Notes under the pieces: generated by a model
What the model was told of the DNA's origin: nothing
The model's database searches: none
What the model saw: only the letters and a program-made list of their open reading frames with translations
Program-made: the position numbers and the translations under genes
DNA from: Agelas oroides
Lineage: Eukaryota > Porifera > Demospongiae > Agelasida > Agelasidae
Reading direction: 5' to 3'
DNA length: 64,000 nt
NCBI GenBank assembly: GCA_949130485.1
Contig: OX422196.1
Location: 2,112,388 to 2,176,387 of the forward strand
Shown here: piece after piece, positions 12,163-54,939 of the stretch
How positions within the stretch are numbered: position 1 is the stretch's first letter
How the letters are laid out: each line of letters begins with the position of its first letter

Positions 12163-13406
12163 TTAATCTCTTAAATGATTGTGATATCTGTATGATTCAA
12201 GAACATTGGCTCTTCAAAGAACAGTTACAATCTCTTAACATCAGTGATGAATATTCCTCAACTGCTGTTAGTGGTATGGTTAGTACAGAATTTGTTGCTG
12301 GGCGGCCCTTTGGTGGCTGTGCCATACTCTATCGTAAGTCACTCTCTAAATTTATTACAACTATAAAGTCGATTTCAAAAAGATTTTGTGCAATTTCACT
12401 TACCTGTTCCTCAATGTCGATCCTCTTGATTTGTGTTTATCTACCTACCAACTATGGTACTTCTCAAAGTCATGACTTCTACTTGGAGGTTCTGGGTGAG
12501 CTTAAAGGCTTTATTGATGCGCAAGTCTTTGACAAAGTTATTGTTGCTGGTGACTTCAATGTTGATTTTAATCATCGAGGTACCACCTGTGTATACTTGC
12601 AAGCGCTCATGAACGACCTTCAACTGTGTGCTGTTGATCTTCTCCCATGTTATAATATTCATTTCACGTATGAGAGAGATGATGGTCTAGCTCGCTCCTG
12701 GCCGGATCACGTTCTGACCAATTGCCACTGTGTCGACAACATCTCCTCCATTATGTGTATACACTCTCCAGATAACTTTTCCGATCATGTTCCTGTCTTT
12801 TTTGAACTTAACGTATCTCTACCTCATGTGGGCAGTTCTGACACTATTAGCTCGCGTGGTAATACTAGTCTTCATGATAAAATCGACTGGCGTAAAATTG
12901 ACTCTGCCTCAATAGAGGCTTACAAGATTTGTGTTTGGGCAAGTTTGTCCACTCTTTCAGATGAGTTGCAAGATTGCTCAACTCCAGATTGCAAGTCGCA
13001 TCAACCTGCTATTGACTATGCATGTGAAAAGCTGTTTTCTTGTCTGTATCATGCTGGACAACAATGTTTTCCACAGTTCAGTAAACGTGCTAAGGTTATG
13101 GCAGGATGGAATGACTCCGTTAGACTACTTCGCAGTAAAGCTCTATTTTGGAATCGTTTGTGGTCAGATAATGGTTGTCCCTCTAGTGGTGTTCTATCGC
13201 AAATCAGGAAGAAAGCCAAGTCTCGCTACAAGTATGCTGTTAGATCTCTAAAACGTCGGAAAGATCACATCGTCAGTAAGAAAATCAGTTCTGCCTTAAC
13301 TGGGAGACACAATCGTGTTTTCTGGCAAGAAATAAAAAGAGTCAAGCGCTCCAAGACTGCTAAACGCTCACAGTCCTCTATTGTTGATGGTTTTACAAAC
13401 ATGTGA
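12163..13406 (+). pseudogene. LINE-A endonuclease domain (decayed)
   Basis: APE-type endonuclease that would nick target DNA for reverse transcription. The frame is open from 12159 back to back with the MITE end; an ATG at 12192 is internal to the domain, so it is not the natural start. Numbering from that ATG: catalytic Glu in QEHWL (E4), GGCAILYRK at 41-49, VYLPTNYG at 82-89, VAGDFNVDF at 118-126, SWPDHVLTN at 169-177, and SDH at 197-199. A basic, Lys/Arg-rich linker follows (about 310-400). An in-frame TGA at 13404-13406 separates it from the RT part, which continues in the same frame, so the original gene was one EN-RT polypeptide. The 5' end is disrupted by the MITE and a second TGA. Confidence 0.9.
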
Positions 13407-46230: not shown

Positions 46231-48599
46231 CATCAGATGACGGTGATATTGGCAGGCCCGTACAGCTTTGTGCGTTTTTTCACCGAGAAAGGGTTTGCAT
46301 TTTGTAACTCTTCATGCCCAGAGCTTCTTCATAATATGCACTTTGCATTAGTGCAACCATTGTACCGAGATAGGAAGGGTCGCGAATGTACTCTAATTTC
46401 CACAGACTGCACTACACTGCGCCGCAGAGGACGGTGACATTAGCAGTCCCGTACAGCTTTGTGCGCCTATTGCACCGATATAGGGTTTACATTTTTAATC
46501 TCTTCATGCCCATAGCTTCTTGATAATAAGCACCGTGGATTAGTGCAACCTCTGTACCGAGCTATGAAGAGTCGCGAATGTACTCGAATTTCCATTGACT
46601 GCACTATACTGCGCCGTAGGGGACGGTGATATTGGCAGACCCGTACAGCTTTGTGCGCCATTTGGACCGAGGAAGGGTTTACATTTTTAAACTCTTCATG
46701 CCCATAGCTTATTGATAATATGCACCTTGCATTAGTGTAACCGTTGTACCGAGTTGGGAAGAGTCGCGAATGTACGCGAATTTCCATTGACTGCATTCTA
46801 CTGCGCCGCAGGGGACGGTGATATTGGCAGGCCCGTACAGCTTTGTTCGCCGTTTGCACCGAGGAAGGGTTTACATTTTTAAACTCTTCATGCCAATAGC
46901 TTCTTGATAATATCCACCTTGCATTAGTGCAACCTTTGTACCGCGTTGTGAAGAGTCGCGAATGTACGCAACTTTCCATTGACTGCACAATACTGCGCCG
47001 CAGGGGACGGTGATATTGGCAGGCCAGTACAGCTATGTACGCCATTTGCACTGCGGAAGGGTTTACATTTTTAAACTCTTCATGCCCATAGCTCCTTGAT
47101 AATATGTACCTTGCATTAGTGAAACCTTTGTACCGAGTTAGGAAGAGTTGCGAATGTACGCGAATATCCATTGACTCTACTATACTGCGCCGCATGGGAA
47201 GGTGATATTGGCAGGCCCGTACAGCTTTGTGCGCCTTTTGCACCGAGAAAGGGTTTATATTTTTAAACTCTTCATGCCCGTATCTTCTTGATAATATGCA
47301 CCTTGCATTAGTGCAACCTTTGTACCGAGCTAGGAAGAGTCGCGAATGCACGCGAATTTCCATTGACTGCACTATACTGCACAGCAGGGGACGGTGATAT
47401 TTGCAGGCCCGTACAGCTCTGTACGCCTTTTGCACCGAGATAGGGTTTACATTGTAAAGCTCTTCATGCCCATAGTTTCTTGATAATATGGACCGTGCAT
47501 TATTGCAACCTCTGTACCCAGCTAGGAAGAATCGCGAATGTACGCGAATTTCCATTGACTGCACTATACTGCGCCGCAGGGGACGGTGATAAAGGCCGGC
47601 CCGCACCGATTTTTGCGCCTTTTGCACCAAGAAAGGGTTTACATTTTTAAACTCTTCATGCCCATAGCTTGTTGATAATATGCACTGTGCATTTGTGCAA
47701 CCTCTGTACCGAGCTAGGAAGAGTCGCGAATGTACGCAAATTTCCATTGACTGCACTATACTGCGCCGCAAGGGACGGTGATATTGGCAGGCCGGTACAG
47801 CTTTGTTCGCCTTTTGCACCGAGAAAAGGTTTGCATTTTTAAACTCTTCATACCCATAGCTTCTTTATAATATGCACCTTGCATTAGTGCAACCTTTGTA
47901 CCGAGCTTGGAAGAGTCGCGAATGTACGCGAATATCCAATGACTGCACTATACTTCGCCGCAGGGGACGGTGATATTAGCAGGCCCGAACAGCCTTGTCC
48001 GCCTTTTGCACCGAGAAAGGGTTTACATTTTTAAACTCTTCATGCCCATAGCTTCTTGATGATAAGCACCGTGCATTAGTTCAACCTCTGTACCGAGCTA
48101 GGAAGAGTCGCGAATGTACGTGAATTTCCATTGACTGCACTATACTGCGCCGCAGGGGACGGTGATATTGACAGGACAGTACAGCTTTGTGCGCCTTATG
48201 CACCGAGATATGGTTTACATTTTGAAACTCTTCATGCCCTTAGCTTCTAGATACAAAGCACCGTGCATTAGTGCAACCTCTGTACAGAGTTAGGAAGAGT
48301 CGCGAATGTACGCGAATTTCCATTGACTGCACTATACTGCGCCGCAGGGGACGGTGATATTGGCAGGCCCGTGCAGCTTTGTGCGCTTTTTGCACCGAGA
48401 AAGGGTTTACATTTTTAAACTCTTCATGCCCATAGCTTCTTTATAATACGCACCTTGCATTAATGCAACCTTTGTTCCGAGCTAGGAAGAGTCGCGAATG
48501 TACGCGAATTTCCATTGACTGCACTATACTGCGCATCATGGGACGGTGATATTGGCAGGTCCGTAGAGCTTTGATCGCCTTTTGCACCAGGAAAGGGTT

Positions 48600-50130
48600 T
48601 ACAATTTTAAACTCTTCATGTCCATACCTTCTTGATAATATGCACCGTGCATTAGTGCAACCTTTGTACCGAGATAGGAAGAGTCGCGAATGTACGCGAA
48701 TTTCCATTGACTGCACTATACTGCGCGGCAGTGGACAGTGATATTCGCCGGCCCGCACCGATTTGTGCGCCTTTTGCACCAATAAAGGGTTTACATTTTT
48801 AAACTCTTCATGCCCATACCTTCTTGATAATATCCACCTTGCATTAGTGCAACCTTTGTACCGCGTTGGGAAGAGTCGCGAATGTACGCAACTTTCCATT
48901 GATTGCACTATACTGCGCCGAAGGGGACGGTGATATTGATAGGCCCGTGCAGCTATGTACGCCATTTGCACCGAGAAATGGTTTACATTTTTAAACTCTT
49001 CATGCCAATAGCTTCTTGATAATATGCACCTTGTATTAGTGCAACCTTTGTACCGAGTTAGGAAGAGTCGCGAATGAACGCGAATTTCCATTGACTGCAC
49101 TATTCTGCCCCGCAAGGGACGGTGATATTGGCAAGCCCGTACAGCTTTGTGCGCCATTTGCACCGAGAATGGGTTTATATTTTTAAACTCTTCATGCCCA
49201 TACCTTCTTGATAATATGCACCTTGCATTAGTGCAACCTTTGTACCGAGATAGGAAGAGTCGCGAATGTACGCGAATTTCCATTGACTGCACTATACTGC
49301 GCGGCAGTGGACAGTGATATTCGCCGGCCCGCACCGATTTGTGCGCCTTTTGCACAAATAAAGGGTTTACATTTTTAAACTCTTCATGCCCATAGCTTCT
49401 TGATAATATGCACCGTGCATTAGTGCAACCTCTGTACCGAAATAGGAGGAGTCGCGAATGTACGCGAATTTCCATTGTCGGCACAATACTGCGTGGCAGA
49501 GGACGGTGATATTCGCTGCCCCACACCGATTTGTGCGCCTTTTGCACCGAGAAAGGGTTTACATTTTTAAACTCTTCATGCCCATACCTTCTTGATAATA
49601 TCCACCTTGTATTAGTGCAACCTTTGTACCGCGTTGGGAAGAGTCGCGAATGTACGCAACTTTCCATTGACAGCACTATACTGCGCCGCAGGGGACGGTG
49701 ATATTGACAGGCCCGTACAGCTATGTACGCCATTTGCACCGAGAAAGGGTTTACATTTTTAAACTCTTCATGCCAATAGCTTCTTGATAATATGCACCTT
49801 GTATTAGTGCAACCTTTGTACCGAGTTAGGAAGAGTCGCGAATGAACGCGAATTTCCATTGACTGCACTATTCTGCCCCGCAAGGGACGGTGATATTGGC
49901 AAGCCCGTACAGCTTTGTGCGCCATTTGCACCGAGAAAGGGTTTATATTTGTAAACACTTCATGCCCATAGCTTCTTGATAATATGCACCTTGCATTAGT
50001 GCAACCTTTGTACCGTGTTAGGAAGAGTCGCGAATGTACGCGAATTTCCATTGTCTGCACTATACTGCGCATCAGGGGACGGTGATATTGGCAGGCCCGT
50101 ACAGCTTTGATCGCCTTTTGCACCGAGAAA
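48600..50130 (-). repeat. 4-monomer higher-order repeat (768-bp lag)
   Basis: TATCCACCTTG after CCCATACCTTCTTGATAA starts at 48831 and 49599, lag 768 bp. Flanking variants (GAACGCGAATTTCC, CTATTCTGCCCCGCAAGGG) recur at the same offset. Confidence 0.85.
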
Positions 50131-50418
50131 GGGTTTACATTTTTAAACTCTTCATGCCCATACCTTCTTGATAATATGCACCTTGCATTAGTGCAACCTT
50201 TGTACCGAGCTAGGAAGAGTCGCGAATGTACGCAACTTTCCATTGACTGCACTATACTGCGCCGCAGGGGACGGTGATATTGACAGTCCCGTACTGCTAT
50301 GTACGCCATTTGCACCGAGAAAAGGTTTACATTTTTAAACTCTTCACGCCCATAGCTTCTTTATAATATGCACCTAGCATTAGATGCAACCTTTGTACCG
50401 AGATAGGAAGAGTCGCGA

Positions 50419-50448
50419 ATTATTATTATTATTATTATTATTATTATT
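50419..50448 (-). repeat. trinucleotide tail of LINE-B
   Basis: Ten ATT units on the plus strand, so (AAT)10 on the element's sense strand. The terminal AAT coincides with AAT of the satellite motif CGCGAAT. Confidence 0.95.
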
Positions 50449-50701
50449 GCTTTACAGCACAGTGAAGATTTGGACAGGGTGAATGAAGAACAGAAGTTGG
50501 TGCTGAATGAAGATGAAAGTTAGAGATTGTACCGTGCTGAAGGACTACTATGGATAAAGAATAGCAGCCTGGACAAAAAACACAAACAAGCTAGTGGTGA
50601 CAAACAATAATTATAGTTTACAAATTATTTATAAATTAAAATCAAAGTTGAAGTTAGTCACGTTGTTTTTCTGTGGTGGCTGAAGAACTTGCACATGCTT
50701 G
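50449..50701 (-). other. LINE-B 3' UTR
   Basis: About 253 bp of A/T-rich non-coding sequence between the ORF2 stop and the trinucleotide tail. A plus-strand frame at 50699-50968 is a shadow of ORF2. No polyadenylation signal is needed for this tail type and I see no convincing conserved structure. Confidence 0.7.
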
Positions 50702-53668
50702 TTACTCAATTTGAAAGTTCGACTTTGGAATAAGAGAACATTTGCTGCATGGGCAGCAGAAATGGTATGTGCATGTAATTTCGCTGTCAAAGTTATGAAC
50801 AAAGGAGAGCCAGAAGATGTCTTTGAGCTTGCGCTTTATTGTGTCATAGCTGGAATCCAAGTCTATAGATGGGAGGGAGTTCCACAGGAGAGGAAGCCTA
50901 CTGAAATAGAAGTTTTTGTGTCTGGTAGTTTTTACAATAGGCTGAATGAGTTTCCTGTGGCTGCCTGATCTTGTAGGGTTAGTACTAAAAGAAATATATT
51001 GTAGGATGTCGAAAGAACTGCATTGGAGTCTCGACTGCTTTAAGCTTCTGACAAAAAAGAATATGTCTTGTAATTCAAAGGTCATCATAAGAGGGAGCAG
51101 ATGTAGTTTCATGAGACGACTCTTGTAATCAAGCGAATTGTCGTTAAGGATGAATTTAGTAGCCCTGCGTTGGATTTGTTCTAAGCTTTTGATATCTTTG
51201 ATTAAGGCTGGTTTCCAGATCTGGGAGCCATAGAGTAGCTGTGAACGAACCAGTGAGATGTATAAACGTTTCCTAGTTACAATATTATTGGTTGCTGAAA
51301 AGGATCTGCGAAGCAGACCGAGAATTCGATAGGCATTGCAAGTGATTTGAGTTATGTGCTTCGACCAAGAGAGATCATGAGACATAGTGATGCCTAAATC
51401 CTTATGATAAGAACATGCTACAACTTCGCAGTTGTTGATGTAGTAGGGGAGGAGACTGCTGGCATTCCTTGAGGAGCCTGACGTGAAAGATATTAGTGAG
51501 CACTTCGACTCATTGAAGAGAAGACTCCAATCTGAACTCCAAGTGGATAGTTGATCTAGATCAGATTGTAGGAGTTGACAGTCCAAAATAGAAGAAATGG
51601 GAGACAAACATTTGGTGTCATCAGCAAACAGTAATATCAGTGAGTGATGAACATATTGAGGTAGATCATTGATAAATATTAAAAATAATAGAGGTCCAAG
51701 TATGCTGCCCTGGGGAACCCCGGAGAGGACTGGCAGTATTGCAGAGTTGCAGCCATTTATTGAAACGTGTTGGACTCTATTTGTCAGGTATTCACGGATC
51801 CACAGCCAAACACTTCCAGTAACACCGATATTCCAGATTTTTGAGAGTAGTTCATGGTGGGGCACTGTATCGAAGGCCTTTTTGAAATCTAAGTAAATGA
51901 CATCACAAGCACCGTTGCTGTTGAGAATGTGATAAACTCTGTCCAAAAATACTAGAAGTTGCTGAGTGGTGGACCGATGTTTGAGAAAACCAAACTGGAA
52001 CTGAGAAATTATGTCGTTAGAGATAATAAATTTGCATAGATAGTTATATATTAAGCGTTCAAGGACTTTTGAGGCTATGCATAGAAGTGACACTGGTCGG
52101 TAGTTGTTGACTGAGGTTCTTTCTCCAGATTTGAAAATAGGAGTTATAGAATGATGTTTCCATTCCGAAGGAATAGCATGGTTAAGGATGCTTAGAGAGA
52201 ACAAGTGGTGAAGGGGGATATAGAGAGCTGGAGCACAATGCTTGAGAAGTTTAGAACCAATGCAGTCGACGCCCATTGATTTGGCTGGATCTAATGAAGA
52301 TAGAGCCGAAAAGACTTCAAGTTCTGTGAAAGAAATGTTTGCAATAGAAGGGTAGGACACAATAGGCTCGGAAGAGGGTAGGGGCAGGGTACCAGTTGGA
52401 CTGGGATTATACACTGAGTGGAAGAAGGAGTTGAACAAATTAGCTTTCTCTAGGTCAGAGGTAGCACTAGCCGAGTTGAGAAAAACGGTGGATGGAATAG
52501 AGCAGTTATTAGAAAGTGAGCGAATATAATCGTAGATTTTTGAATTACAGTTACCGGCACAGTTTGCAACAAGTTGAGACTCATAGAGTGATTTGGCAGA
52601 TTGGATTTTATCACTAAGGGCTGAAGTTTGCTGCTCAAGTTTGTTTCGTAAGTAGGATGTTGGTTTTTTGGATACTTTCTTGCGAAGGGTATGGAGGCAT
52701 TTGGATAGATGTCTGAGTTCGGGTGTGTACCAGCGAGGGTATTGATGACGGTGCAATCTGACCCTGGGAATGAACAAGTTCATTCCTTCATAGATGGCTG
52801 ACTTGATTGTGTTCCATACCGAATCAACATCATGTGATAAAAGGCATGTGGTGAAGTTGAAATCAAGAAGAAAAGAGCAAAGACTGTTGTAGTCAGCCTT
52901 GGGGTAATCATAAACATATATTGGAGAGGAGCAAGAGGAAGATGGTACCGAGGCTGACAAACGGAAGGTGAGAGTGAAGTGGTCAGAAATAATCAGATGG
53001 CCACAAGAGTGAATTGTGAGATCTCTGACAGAGTCCTCTGAATTGGTAATGATGAGGTCAAGAATGTTGCCTTTTGAGTGGGTAGAAGTGTCAACTACTT
53101 GGAAGAGTGCGTTATCAAAGATGAAGTCACAGAAGGCTCTGGAAGCAGATGAGCTTGCTGATAGGTTGTCCCAGTTAATATCAGGGAGGTTAAAATCACC
53201 AACAAGGACTAATGAATTTCTTGGGTAAGAGTTAATCAGTGTGGAGAAGTACTGGATGACTTCAGTCAGCTGTAAGTCGTCAGTGCAAGGCGGGATGTAG
53301 ATACAGCAGAGAGTAATTGGTTTTCTGAGCATTAAGTTGACTGATACAACTTCGATTGAATTGGAAACGAGAGCAGTAGATATTTTAACAGTGATTGTAG
53401 GAATTGTGTCTCGGACAGCTATCATTGCTCCGCCACCACGAGAATGTCTGTCTTTACGGAAAATACAGTAATTGGTGGGTAAAATTTCCTGATCAAAGAT
53501 GGAATCGGATAGCCATGTTTCAGATACAAGGACAATATCGTAATTGGATGAATAAATTAGAGATTGGAATTTGGACAATTTATTAACAAGGCTTCTTGCA
53601 TTGTAGTAGCAACATGTGATCGGATTATTGAATGAGTCAATTCTAGAATTGTGGCTGGGGCTGCATAG
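50702..53668 (-). CDS. LINE-B ORF2: endonuclease-reverse transcriptase
   Basis: Enzyme of target-primed retrotransposition: nicks DNA and copies the element RNA. The frame opens directly after the ORF1 stop (53671-53669) and has no ATG before the catalytic core; the first Met is AMIAV, beyond the catalytic Glu. A TTG at 53578 lies inside the domain. From that TTG (residue 1): the preceding 30 codons include YYNARSLVNK, the first strand of the endonuclease; SETWL with E20; VGDFN at 126-130; NILDLIITN at 171-179; SDH at 198-200. RT: SITPIFKSGE at 477-486, NNYRPVSL at 491-498, YLDFKKAFDTV at 562-572 (D564), GVPQGSILGPLLF at 620-632, FADD at 651-654. The C-terminus carries clustered Cys (936, 941, 942, 944, 947). 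No RNase H. All catalytic motifs look intact. Expression probably depends on decoding the upstream UGA. Confidence 0.92.
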   Translation of the reverse strand, partial: LCSPSHNSRIDSFNNPITCCYYNARSLVNKLSKFQSLIYSSNYDIVLVSETWLSDSIFDQEILPTNYCIFRKDRHSRGGGAMIAVRDTIPTITVKISTALVSNSIEVVSVNLMLRKPITLCCIYIPPCTDDLQLTEVIQYFSTLINSYPRNSLVLVGDFNLPDINWDNLSASSSASRAFCDFIFDNALFQVVDTSTHSKGNILDLIITNSEDSVRDLTIHSCGHLIISDHFTLTFRLSASVPSSSCSSPIYVYDYPKADYNSLCSFLLDFNFTTCLLSHDVDSVWNTIKSAIYEGMNLFIPRVRLHRHQYPRWYTPELRHLSKCLHTLRKKVSKKPTSYLRNKLEQQTSALSDKIQSAKSLYESQLVANCAGNCNSKIYDYIRSLSNNCSIPSTVFLNSASATSDLEKANLFNSFFHSVYNPSPTGTLPLPSSEPIVSYPSIANISFTELEVFSALSSLDPAKSMGVDCIGSKLLKHCAPALYIPLHHLFSLSILNHAIPSEWKHHSITPIFKSGERTSVNNYRPVSLLCIASKVLERLIYNYLCKFIISNDIISQFQFGFLKHRSTTQQLLVFLDRVYHILNSNGACDVIYLDFKKAFDTVPHHELLSKIWNIGVTGSVWLWIREYLTNRVQHVSINGCNSAILPVLSGVPQGSILGPLLFLIFINDLPQYVHHSLILLFADDTKCLSPISSILDCQLLQSDLDQLSTWSSDWSLLFNESKCSLISFTSGSSRNASSLLPYYINNCEVVACSYHKDLGITMSHDLSWSKHITQITCNAYRILGLLRRSFSATNNIVTRKRLYISLVRSQLLYGSQIWKPALIKDIKSLEQIQRRATKFILNDNSLDYKSRLMKLHLLPLMMTFELQDIFFFVRSLKQSRLQCSSFDILQYISFSTNPTRSGSHRKLIQPIVKTTRHKNFYFSRLPLLWNSLPSIDLDSSYDTIKRKLKDIFWLSFVHNFDSEITCTYHFCCPCSKCSLIPKSNFQIE

Positions 53669-53671
53669 TCA
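53666..53671 (-). promoter_or_regulatory. UGA-CUA stop between ORF1 and ORF2, candidate readthrough site
   Basis: On the minus strand the sequence is GAT-TGA-CTA-TGC. TGA ends ORF1 and the same frame continues into ORF2 without an ATG for more than 75 codons. UGA followed by CUA is an established leaky-stop context in viral and animal mRNAs. The alternative is a recent nonsense mutation in a formerly fused gene. Confidence 0.55.
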
Positions 53672-54757
53672 ATCAGAGGCTGTGACCGGAACCACGTTGG
53701 GAGGGTCATGATTGTCAGAGGAAACAATAGGTTGAATAGCAGAAGCCATACTGGGTTCAGAGAGTAAAGTATTGTCGCTGGTTTCCTCTGAGTCTGAAGG
53801 AATGACAGGGGTATGAAGCTTGAATTCGGAAGCATTAGCTGAGCCATATTTTATCTTCCTGACGAAAATGCTGTTGCCACGAATTCTAATGTCTTTTTTG
53901 TCTGTGCCCGATTCGATAAGTAGCTTCCTTTGACGTAACAAAGTAGCTTCAGTGGACCTTTCAAGGGGGGACTGGTGGGGTTTAATAAAGACTCCAGGAG
54001 TCTCAGACTGAACTAATTTCTGCCGACTGGCCAAAATGCTCAGCACATCACAAGAGCGATTGAGTTTAGCCAGCAAGGGGCGGTTACGACCCTCGGTGTA
54101 CCTACCCAACCTCACACTGTCACGAATTGCTTGGCTTGGAATGTCGGGGCAAATGCCCTGAATTATATCACTTACAGACTTCATATCATTGCTTGTTCTC
54201 ACATGCCTTGGAGTACCCTTCTTACACTCTTTGATACCATAGATTATTACATTGAATCTACGTTCGTCAGGGCTTACCAACTTGACTCTTTCAGGGTAGC
54301 TGGCAGACTTGGAAGCGATGCTAGGCTTTGTCTTGGTCTTTGTCTTTATCTTCACCATTGAGCTCCACTCACCGTTGCTTTGCAGAGCCGCGTTAGCACT
54401 GCCTTCGGGCTGCTGTTCAGTCTCCGCATCGTTAGAAGACGCTAAGGAGCAATTCTCACAAGGTAGCCTCTCTCTTGCTAGCTGTTCTTTCGTGGCGGTA
54501 AGTTCAGCTTTAAGACTCTCTAGCTCGGCAGCCAGTTGTGAGACTCGCTCGTTTTGAAGTTGCTGGTTACAGACCATACACACAAAGGGGCGGCCGGTAG
54601 AGTTGAATTGTTTGTAGTGAGTAGCAGAGACGCCTGCACAGTAACGGTGAAATGTCAGCCTACACTGGCCCTCGCACTGAATACAGTCTTCTTTGCTGTC
54701 AACAATGGGGCGACAACAGAGGTCGCATGAGCTAGCTGCCTTCTTCTTTGGTGGCAT
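53669..54757 (-). CDS. LINE-B ORF1: PHD-finger, coiled-coil nucleic-acid-binding protein
   Basis: 362 residues from the ATG at 54757 (MPPKKKAASS). The open frame extends upstream into the satellite, but that part is satellite translation and the ATG 42 bp inside the element is the sensible start. A PHD-like zinc finger occupies residues 11-63 with C11, C14, C25, C28, C32, H37, C40, C60 and C63. A heptad-rich coiled coil follows (about 64-97), then a second Cys pair (C100, C103), a Lys/Thr stretch (136-144), and RRFNVIIYGIKE at 166-177, which resembles the start of the RRM-like domain of LINE ORF1 proteins. The protein would bind element RNA as a multimer; PHD fingers usually read histone tails, so a targeting role is possible but unproven. 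Ends at TGA in frame with ORF2. Confidence 0.85.
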   Translation of the reverse strand: MPPKKKAASSCDLCCRPIVDSKEDCIQCEGQCRLTFHRYCAGVSATHYKQFNSTGRPFVCMVCNQQLQNERVSQLAAELESLKAELTATKEQLARERLPCENCSLASSNDAETEQQPEGSANAALQSNGEWSSMVKIKTKTKTKPSIASKSASYPERVKLVSPDERRFNVIIYGIKECKKGTPRHVRTSNDMKSVSDIIQGICPDIPSQAIRDSVRLGRYTEGRNRPLLAKLNRSCDVLSILASRQKLVQSETPGVFIKPHQSPLERSTEATLLRQRKLLIESGTDKKDIRIRGNSIFVRKIKYGSANASEFKLHTPVIPSDSEETSDNTLLSEPSMASAIQPIVSSDNHDPPNVVPVTASD

Positions 54758-54799
54758 AGTATTCAAAATTTTGCCGAGAGACTCAGTTGTAGTGCCACT
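54758..54799 (-). other. LINE-B 5' leader
   Basis: Only about 42 bp lie between the satellite junction and the ORF1 ATG. The element is either essentially full length with a very short leader or slightly 5'-truncated. No promoter motif is evident. Confidence 0.6.
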
Positions 54800-54939
54800 A
54801 TTAGTGCAACCTTTGTACCGAGCTAGGAAGAGTCGCGAATGTACGCGAATTTCCATTGACTGCACTATACTGCACCGCAGGGGACGGTGATATTGGCAGG
54901 CCCGTACAGCTTTGATCGCCTTTTGCACCGAGAAAGGGT

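Follow-up and report, generated by a model that had tools for sequence, protein, structure and literature searches.

A conserved UGA-CUA context between ORF1 and ORF2 of LINEs from the sponge Agelas oroides suggests readthrough expression of ORF2

Introduction

To our knowledge, the route by which two-ORF LINEs express ORF2 is unsettled for most clades, and we know of no CR1-like element described with a TGA-CTA junction. The ORF1s of CR1-like elements bear PHD domains. In gammaretroviral Gag-Pol, a stop codon separates the structural and polymerase parts.

Type II readthrough uses UGA followed by CUA or CGG, as in the alphavirus replicase and others, and in most viral cases an extended stem-loop begins roughly 8 nt 3' of the stop codon; gammaretroviral readthrough uses UAG-G and a compact pseudoknot (PMC3542737). 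UGA-CUAG has been shown to work in four human genes (OPRK1, OPRL1, MAPK10 and AQP4), and in mammals the 12 nt 3' of the stop suffice for maximal readthrough (PMC4132726). Accidental stops in human L1 ORF2 are also thought to be read through (PMC4176336). Viruses and a small number of mammalian genes already provide examples of the UGA-CUA context.

Here we describe this context in LINE-B, an element lying in a window of 64,000 nucleotides (the whole stretch that was analysed, from contig OX422196.1 of A. oroides). Like CR1-like LINEs, LINE-B has an APE endonuclease and a reverse transcriptase (RT), and by predicted fold its ORF1 may also include a PHD-like part. Like gammaretroviral Gag-Pol it places a stop between structural and polymerase parts, although the element types are unrelated. 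Viral type II readthrough likewise has UGA and then CUA, with the polymerase in the product beyond the stop (PMC3542737), but the LINE-B signal sits on a chromosomal LINE. The four human genes have a conserved UGA-CUA in common with it; there readthrough adds a C-terminal extension, whereas in LINE-B it would add a whole 988-residue enzyme. Leakage in human L1 ORF2 occurs at a low level at premature mutations in defective copies (PMC4176336), in contrast to the conserved inter-ORF signal of LINE-B. SART1, which reinitiates, and LINEs with 2A skipping face the same task of obtaining several proteins from one RNA (PMC5972666, PMC4981915), but their signals differ.

Results

LINE-B appears to be a full-length two-ORF LINE, and because its other copies are 96-100% identical we read it as recently active (Table 1). 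ORF2 matches Exo_endo_phos (1.2e-7), Exo_endo_phos_2 (2.2e-12) and RVT_1 (3.1e-34) in Pfam, which places an APE-type endonuclease before the RT, the CR1-like order. The ORF1 finger has no Pfam match above cut-off, but its predicted model, built from a four-row alignment, matches Pygo PHD fingers in Foldseek. Residues 166-306 resemble human L1 ORF1p (2yko, E 1.3e-4), with a low TM-score to the whole model.

Table 1. Features of the LINE-B copy, in positions of the window
Feature	Position	Strand	Remarks
LINE-B element	50419..54800	minus	5' boundary approximate; sits within 192-bp satellite array
ORF1	53669..54757	minus	362 codons + TGA; contains a PHD-like finger, a coiled coil and an RRM/CTD-like part
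PHD-like zinc finger of ORF1	54569..54727	minus	residues 11-63; conserved Cys/His; predicted fold, Foldseek
RRM/CTD-like part of ORF1	53840..54262	minus	residues 166-306; Foldseek
TGA, proposed leaky stop of ORF1	53669..53671	minus	
CTA, conserved 3' half of the proposed readthrough hexamer	53666..53668	minus	
Linker from stop to endonuclease	53621..53665	minus	weakly constrained
ORF2	50702..53668	minus	988 codons + TAA (50704-50702)
APE-type endonuclease domain of ORF2	52976..53605	minus	residues 22-231; Pfam PF03372, PF14529
Reverse transcriptase domain of ORF2	51488..52111	minus	residues 520-727; Pfam PF00078
C-terminal Cys-rich stretch CTYHFCCPCSKC	50738..50773	minus	from translation; similar in families C, D, G
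3' tail (TAA)n	50419..50448	minus	

From its ATG at 54757, ORF1 runs to the TGA, CTA follows directly, and the ORF2 frame continues uninterrupted for 988 codons; coordinates and frame thus bear out an earlier sequence-only reading, in which the two ORFs share one frame with a single TGA-CTA between them. That reading also correctly placed YYNARSLVNK within the thirty codons between the stop and the TTG at 53578 (they include CYYNARSLVNK), and put the first ORF2 Met beyond the catalytic Glu of the endonuclease, as we find (codon 82 at 53425 against codon 50 at 53521). It further claimed that LINE-B ORF2 has no ordinary AUG start. Of the seven families checked, E and F carry an in-frame AUG at codon 16 of ORF2. 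The other five have no AUG before the Glu, and their first in-frame Met, at codon 82 (B1), 325 (C), 71 (D), 341 (G) or 93 (H), lies past it in each case.

Copies of the junction were fetched from the same 259-Mb genome and duplicate loci were combined by hand into places. Copies ending short 3' of the stop (for example L028, L031, L042, L043, L045 and L046) were left out of the count, and hexamer-bearing copies frameshifted nearby (L015, L022, L049 and L050) were kept in it. TGA-CTA is present at 28 of the 30 places covering the junction, in six families whose ORF2 identity falls as low as 34% (B1 10/10, B2 5/5, C 2/2, D 5/6, E 5/5, F 1/2). The exceptions are an otherwise broken family-D copy with CGA-CTA (L067) and a decayed family-F copy with TGA-ATA (L079). 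Sense codons in the majority of intact copies would have pointed to a nonsense mutation; here a sense codon occurs at one place, in that broken family-D copy. Two more families, G (L154) and H (L155), both carry the hexamer (2/2); they come from LINE-bearing contigs within two bacterial MAGs and were found by an ORF2 profile scan of a genome contig collection in which the junction played no part in selection.

ORF2 lies in the frame of ORF1 in all eight families; of the two routes to a separate start that the earlier reading had named as counter-evidence, a frame offset occurs in none and an AUG before the Glu, among the seven families checked, only in E and F. ORF2 is full-length and open in B1, C, D, F and G; in F this is a single copy, and its ORF1 appears truncated. 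The hexamer's surroundings vary, which for flanking codons was the check proposed in that reading: the codon before the stop and the bases after CTA differ among families, and the distance from the stop to the Asn of NARS ranges from 10 to 70 codons. The next base is T in five families, C in two and G in H only, so that seven of the eight lack the full CUAG of the human genes.

Synonymous sites are saturated between B1 and C and between B1 and D; with differing flanking codons and linker length, this leaves only the hexamer held constant. Between B1 and B2, dN/dS is 0.21 in ORF1 and 0.11 in ORF2 (372 codons compared). Over the 81 ORF2 codons ahead of the first Met it is 0.13 (B1 against one B2 copy), and across the first 16, CTA included, 0.50. 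The region upstream of any LINE-B ORF2 AUG is under purifying selection, and coding selection persists in frame past the stop. B1, C, D and E share 29 invariant Leu columns, of which only the one at the junction keeps a single codon (CTA); in the other 28 the codon varies. CTA accounts for 146 of 5,658 codons, and a chance match of five further families would have a probability of about 1e-8, assuming that families are independent.

No 3' RNA structure common to the junctions was found in seven sequences (80-nt windows, 120-nt folds); the 80 nt from the stop onward gave z between -0.9 and 0.8, with no extended stem-loop of the viral kind. Windows beginning 60 nt upstream of the stop gave z of -4.2, -2.5 and -2.2 in two B2 copies and E, and +0.6 in B1. 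A family-C window at +100 gave -3.2.

In trees confined to elements of this genome and the two MAG contigs, B1, C, D, E, G and H are united in a single clade (support 100/100); B2 was placed with B1 by identity. Family F sits among LINEs with frameshift-type junctions. More distant relatives have either a -1 overlap of ORF1 and ORF2 or one single frame, and those with other junctions carry -1 frameshift-like sites, which would yield the same ORF1-ORF2 fusion. Other LINEs of this genome contain 2A-like motifs; the LINE-B translation showed none. A single-protein scan of the genome contig collection found no relative outside the genome, and four scans of a viral contig collection found no relatives. 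A plasmid scan returned 14 records, all below 60% identity and each with less than 80% of the query covered, with 9 annotated ltrA among the 10 matches listed.

Discussion

We propose, with a probability of roughly 0.88, that LINE-B ORF2 is made as an ORF1-ORF2 fusion through programmed type II readthrough of UGA-CUA. Ribosomes translating ORF1 would mostly terminate at the UGA; because CUA comes next, a fraction would decode it by a near-cognate tRNA and proceed into ORF2. The RNA-binding protein of ORF1 would thus be in excess over the endonuclease-RT, as viral Gag is over Gag-Pol. The shared frame, the conserved hexamer and coding selection across the region are direct observations, and they correspond to what type II readthrough presents: UGA then CUA, a stop and context kept while neutral sites diverge, and in-frame coding selection beyond the stop. 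The suggestion of the sequence-only reading that UGA-CUA is a leaky context, and a readthrough fusion plausible, probably stands, given the hexamer kept across families, the single frame and the match to the type II literature. We infer that readthrough occurs, at some rate and with some amino acid inserted (Trp, Arg or Cys would be expected at UGA), and that the fusion is the form in which the enzyme works. We found no LINE making ORF2 through UGA-CUA in the literature searched.

Termination followed by reinitiation, perhaps at a non-AUG codon by the stop, would instead release a separate ORF2 protein. SART1 and possibly human L1 use this route (PMC5972666), and the early in-frame AUG of families E and F would suit it. 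However, in B1, C, D, G and H the first in-frame Met comes too late to preserve the endonuclease Glu, CTATG, with its out-of-frame ATG, is confined to B1 and E, and reinitiation offers no reason for keeping CTA or a single frame. We consider it improbable.

A lone TGA between two long same-frame stretches also invites the idea that it is a sense or selenocysteine codon, or is removed by editing or splicing. Eight ORFs (five ORF2s and three ORF1s, 5,658 codons, delimited by stops though several cover whole proteins) nevertheless hold 74 TGG and zero TGA. An Rfam search at E up to 5 returned no SECIS, its lone match (E 3.2) falling far under its cut-off, and none of these processes accounts for the conservation of CTA, which makes them very unlikely. 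The 18 host gene ends read (histone, 11 of 20 fetched; actin, 7 of 10) include no TGA; all are TAA and so speak neither for nor against TGA as a host terminator. A role for the hexamer as splice branch point was dropped by reasoning, as this would not link it to the ORF boundary or require CTA.

Hardly credible is the alternative named in the sequence-only reading, a nonsense mutation in a once-fused ORF1-ORF2 gene (here spread from one master copy). In its favour, CpG mutation readily turns CGA into TGA, one family-D copy has CGA, and LINE-A, also in the window, carries a TGA of this kind. That control TGA is CGA or CAA, and hence sense, in 12 of 14 copies, the pattern expected of a mutation. 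The LINE-B stop and following codon, in contrast, are common to eight families, of which six make up a single deeply diverged clade, and five families keep a full-length open ORF2, so that the explanation fits the LINE-A TGA and fails for LINE-B.

Returning to UGA-CUA readthrough, we lean slightly toward the view that it is an old, standing route by which a LINE clade obtains ORF2 solely as an ORF1-ORF2 fusion, that family F, of the frameshifting group, acquired the hexamer independently, and that LINEs can swap a -1 frameshift for a leaky stop with the fusion kept. The signal is only six bases, preserved across deep divergence. If the proposal is true, LINE-B ORF2 would be part of a Gag-Pol-like fusion and not a free enzyme, and three recoding devices (a leaky stop, a -1 frameshift and 2A-like motifs) would then appear to be used by related LINEs of one genome.

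Structure of the LINE-B junction

Most of the window consists of a 192-bp satellite in which two LINEs, LINE-A and LINE-B, are inserted. The surrounding assembly comprises 141 contigs and 259 Mb, and its LINEs, histone genes and spliced actin genes mark it as eukaryotic. The satellite unit equals 64 codons, and the satellite yields long open frames, such as one of 624 codons at 48441-50315, which probably have no coding meaning.

In LINE-B, ORF1 and ORF2 share one frame and meet at TGA-CTA. ORF2 has Pfam matches to an APE-type endonuclease domain followed by a reverse transcriptase domain; the endonuclease Glu is ORF2 codon 50, and the earliest ORF2 Met is codon 82, further 3'. The sequence-only reading had described an ORF1 TGA, 988 in-frame codons beyond it and a first Met past the Glu, and this description is exact, with matching coordinates.

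Features of the two LINEs (window coordinates) and loci with slippery heptamers
Feature	Position	Strand	Detail
LINE-B	~54800 to (TAA)n tail end 50419	minus	
LINE-B (TAA)n tail	50448-50419	minus	
ORF1 (translation)	ATG 54757, stop TGA 53671-53669	minus	362 codons
ORF2 (translation)	to TAA 50704-50702	minus	988 codons, ORF1's frame
LINE-A in-frame TGA	13404-13406		between endonuclease and RT; next codon GAT
-1 slippery-heptamer loci			L051, L055, L056, L059, L061, L063, L065, L070, L074, L076, L080, L081, L083, L085-L090, L093

No Pfam match above the cut-off was found for ORF1. In a model from a four-row alignment (pTM 0.40, mean pLDDT 66), the N-terminus looks like Pygo PHD fingers and the second half like the RRM and CTD of human L1 ORF1p (Foldseek 2yko, E 1.3e-4, with a TM-score against the whole model of only 0.27); 11 of 1,404 Foldseek matches had E 0.001 or better. 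Because of these similarities, the predicted ORF1 reads as a PHD-like finger, a coiled coil and an RNA-binding part. Its leader is seemingly very short, under ~45 nt (window 54758-54800 and the copies L002, L005, L008, L012 and L027), and is unlike among copies within one family, so that LINE-B appears to start almost at the ORF1 ATG.

Conservation of the hexamer

Searching the genome with ORF2, with the ORF1 and junction stretch, and with the ORF2s of relatives, which gives lower bounds on copy number, recovered LINE-B's own family (B1) and families B2 (about 72-77% identical to B1), C (59%), D (42%), E (41-42%) and F, the last 34% identical to D and E. TGACTA stands at the junction in 28 of 30 fetched places, a count that omits copies truncated 3' of the stop (B1 10/10, B2 5/5, C 2/2, D 5/6, E 5/5, F 1/2). 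The exceptions are a broken D copy with CGA-CTA (L067) and a decayed F copy with TGA-ATA (L079).

An ORF2 profile scan of prokaryote genomes added families G and H, on contigs L154 and L155 of the Candidatus Poribacteria MAGs Plut_88891 and Plut_88864. Both contigs encode LINE ORF1 and ORF2 and are therefore probably eukaryotic contamination. We take "Plut" to denote the coral Porites lutea. Their junctions, in frame between the ORFs, read AAT GAC TGA CTA CAT (G) and TCG CAA TGA CTA GTG (H). G groups with B1 and C (support 88/88) and H with D and E (91/92), and the six families form a single clade (100/100). Together these results indicate that the hexamer is older than the split of the six and also occurs in DNA from another source than the window's genome. 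The ORF2 of G also ends in TGA then CTA (L154:4357-4362), which may be chance or a further leaky stop.

The sequence-only reading had proposed asking whether TGA-CTA is kept while its flanks vary, and so it is: between families the preceding codon differs (GAT, CAA, TCA, CAC, GAC), as do the bases 3' of the hexamer and the distance from the stop to the NARS Asn (22 codons in B1, 70 in C, 11 in D, 10 in E, 35 in F, 10 in G, 11 in H). Synonymous sites are saturated between B1 and C and between B1 and D. Across B1, C, D and E, a single codon is kept in 23 of 171 invariant columns (Met and Trp excluded) and in one of 29 invariant Leu columns, the CTA at the junction; with G and H added, none of 20 aligned invariant Leu columns keeps a single codon, the junction Leu being split across columns. 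CTA makes up 2.6% of 5,658 codons, and the probability of its matching by chance in five further families would be ~1e-8, with families taken as independent.

Comparison of B1 with one B2 copy gave dN/dS of 0.21 in ORF1, 0.11 in ORF2 (372 codons) and 0.13 over the 81 ORF2 codons 5' of the first Met, which indicates that coding selection continues 3' of the ORF1 stop, but 0.50 in the 16-codon linker.

Proposed readthrough and its alternatives

We hypothesize that ORF2 is made by readthrough of the ORF1 stop, as first proposed, and give this high probability given the shared frame, hexamer conservation and selection past the stop, all observed at the junction. Termination followed by reinitiation, releasing a separate ORF2 protein, is improbable: it offers no reason for retaining CTA and the frame, and an AUG 5' of the endonuclease Glu is absent in five of seven families. 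It is less probable still that the TGA is a sense codon, encodes selenocysteine, or is removed by editing or splicing. TGA is absent from 5,658 codons (in stop-delimited, largely full-length frames), no selenocysteine element was found, and editing or splicing gives no cause for CTA retention. Least credible is the alternative raised at the outset, a single nonsense mutation in a formerly fused gene, which leaves the hexamer of eight families unexplained.

LINE-A illustrates such a mutation. Its TGA, common to the window and one other copy, is an ordinary nonsense mutation: among the 14 of 15 fetched places that cover the site (window counted), 11 read CGA and one CAA, 12 in all, against two with TGA. 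The LINE-B pattern is unlike this.

UGA-CUA is described as a type II readthrough context used by some alphaviruses (PMC3542737), and UGA-CUAG as a driver of readthrough in four human genes, reaching about 31% for OPRL1 in HEK-293T cells; the 12 nt that follow the stop are enough for a maximal level (PMC4132726). As no 3' stem is shared across the seven junctions examined, the hexamer alone would be the signal in LINE-B, much as in the mammalian UGA-CUAG genes. ORF2 would then be produced solely as an ORF1-ORF2 fusion; we infer that readthrough occurs, at some rate and with some inserted residue, and that the fusion is active.

Other candidate recoding devices and a probable second origin

In 23 related loci the ORF1 frame, judged by eye, is unlike that of ORF2 (L071, L073, L075, L078, L082, L091 and L092, 5'-cut or unclear, were omitted). 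Among the 21 that could be anchored, 20 have a -1-shift overlap in which an XXXYYYZ heptamer lies in register; in 11 of these loci it is TTTTTTA. They are fewer than 20 separate cases because several loci share one family. The 21 overlaps hold 24 heptamers in register versus 11 in the other two registers combined. Eight further loci (L053, L054, L057, L060, L062, L064, L066, L072) have a single frame and a 2A-like NPGP motif, the L060 sequence being cut just before it. Such motifs, e.g. GDVHSNPGP, GDVEANPGP and GNIEANPGP, lie 5' of a cysteine-rich and endonuclease part.

Family F, with its TGA-CTA, is sister to one element of the frameshift type (L080/L094; support 100/100). A single clade of all readthrough families is rejected (p-AU 0.013; 0.034 with G and H). 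This is moderate evidence, since the tested group had not been set in advance and the tree has long branches. Most probably the hexamer arose a second time in F, although that family is represented by a single open-ORF2 copy.

We know of no described LINE that uses this recoding signal. Titles and abstract openings yielded no paper on stop readthrough as a route to LINE ORF2, and an earlier mention is possible. The nearest case is a proposed low-level readthrough of premature stops within ORF2 of defective human L1 (PMC4176336). Passages of a 2016 recoding review (PMC5009743) and a reinitiation review (PMC5972666) name frameshifting and reinitiation for non-LTR elements, and a word search of PMC4120745 and PMC2881922 gave no mention of stop codons or readthrough. 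LINE-B and its relatives would thus carry a recoding signal of a known kind in a kind of element with no known described case, deeply conserved and probably with a second origin.
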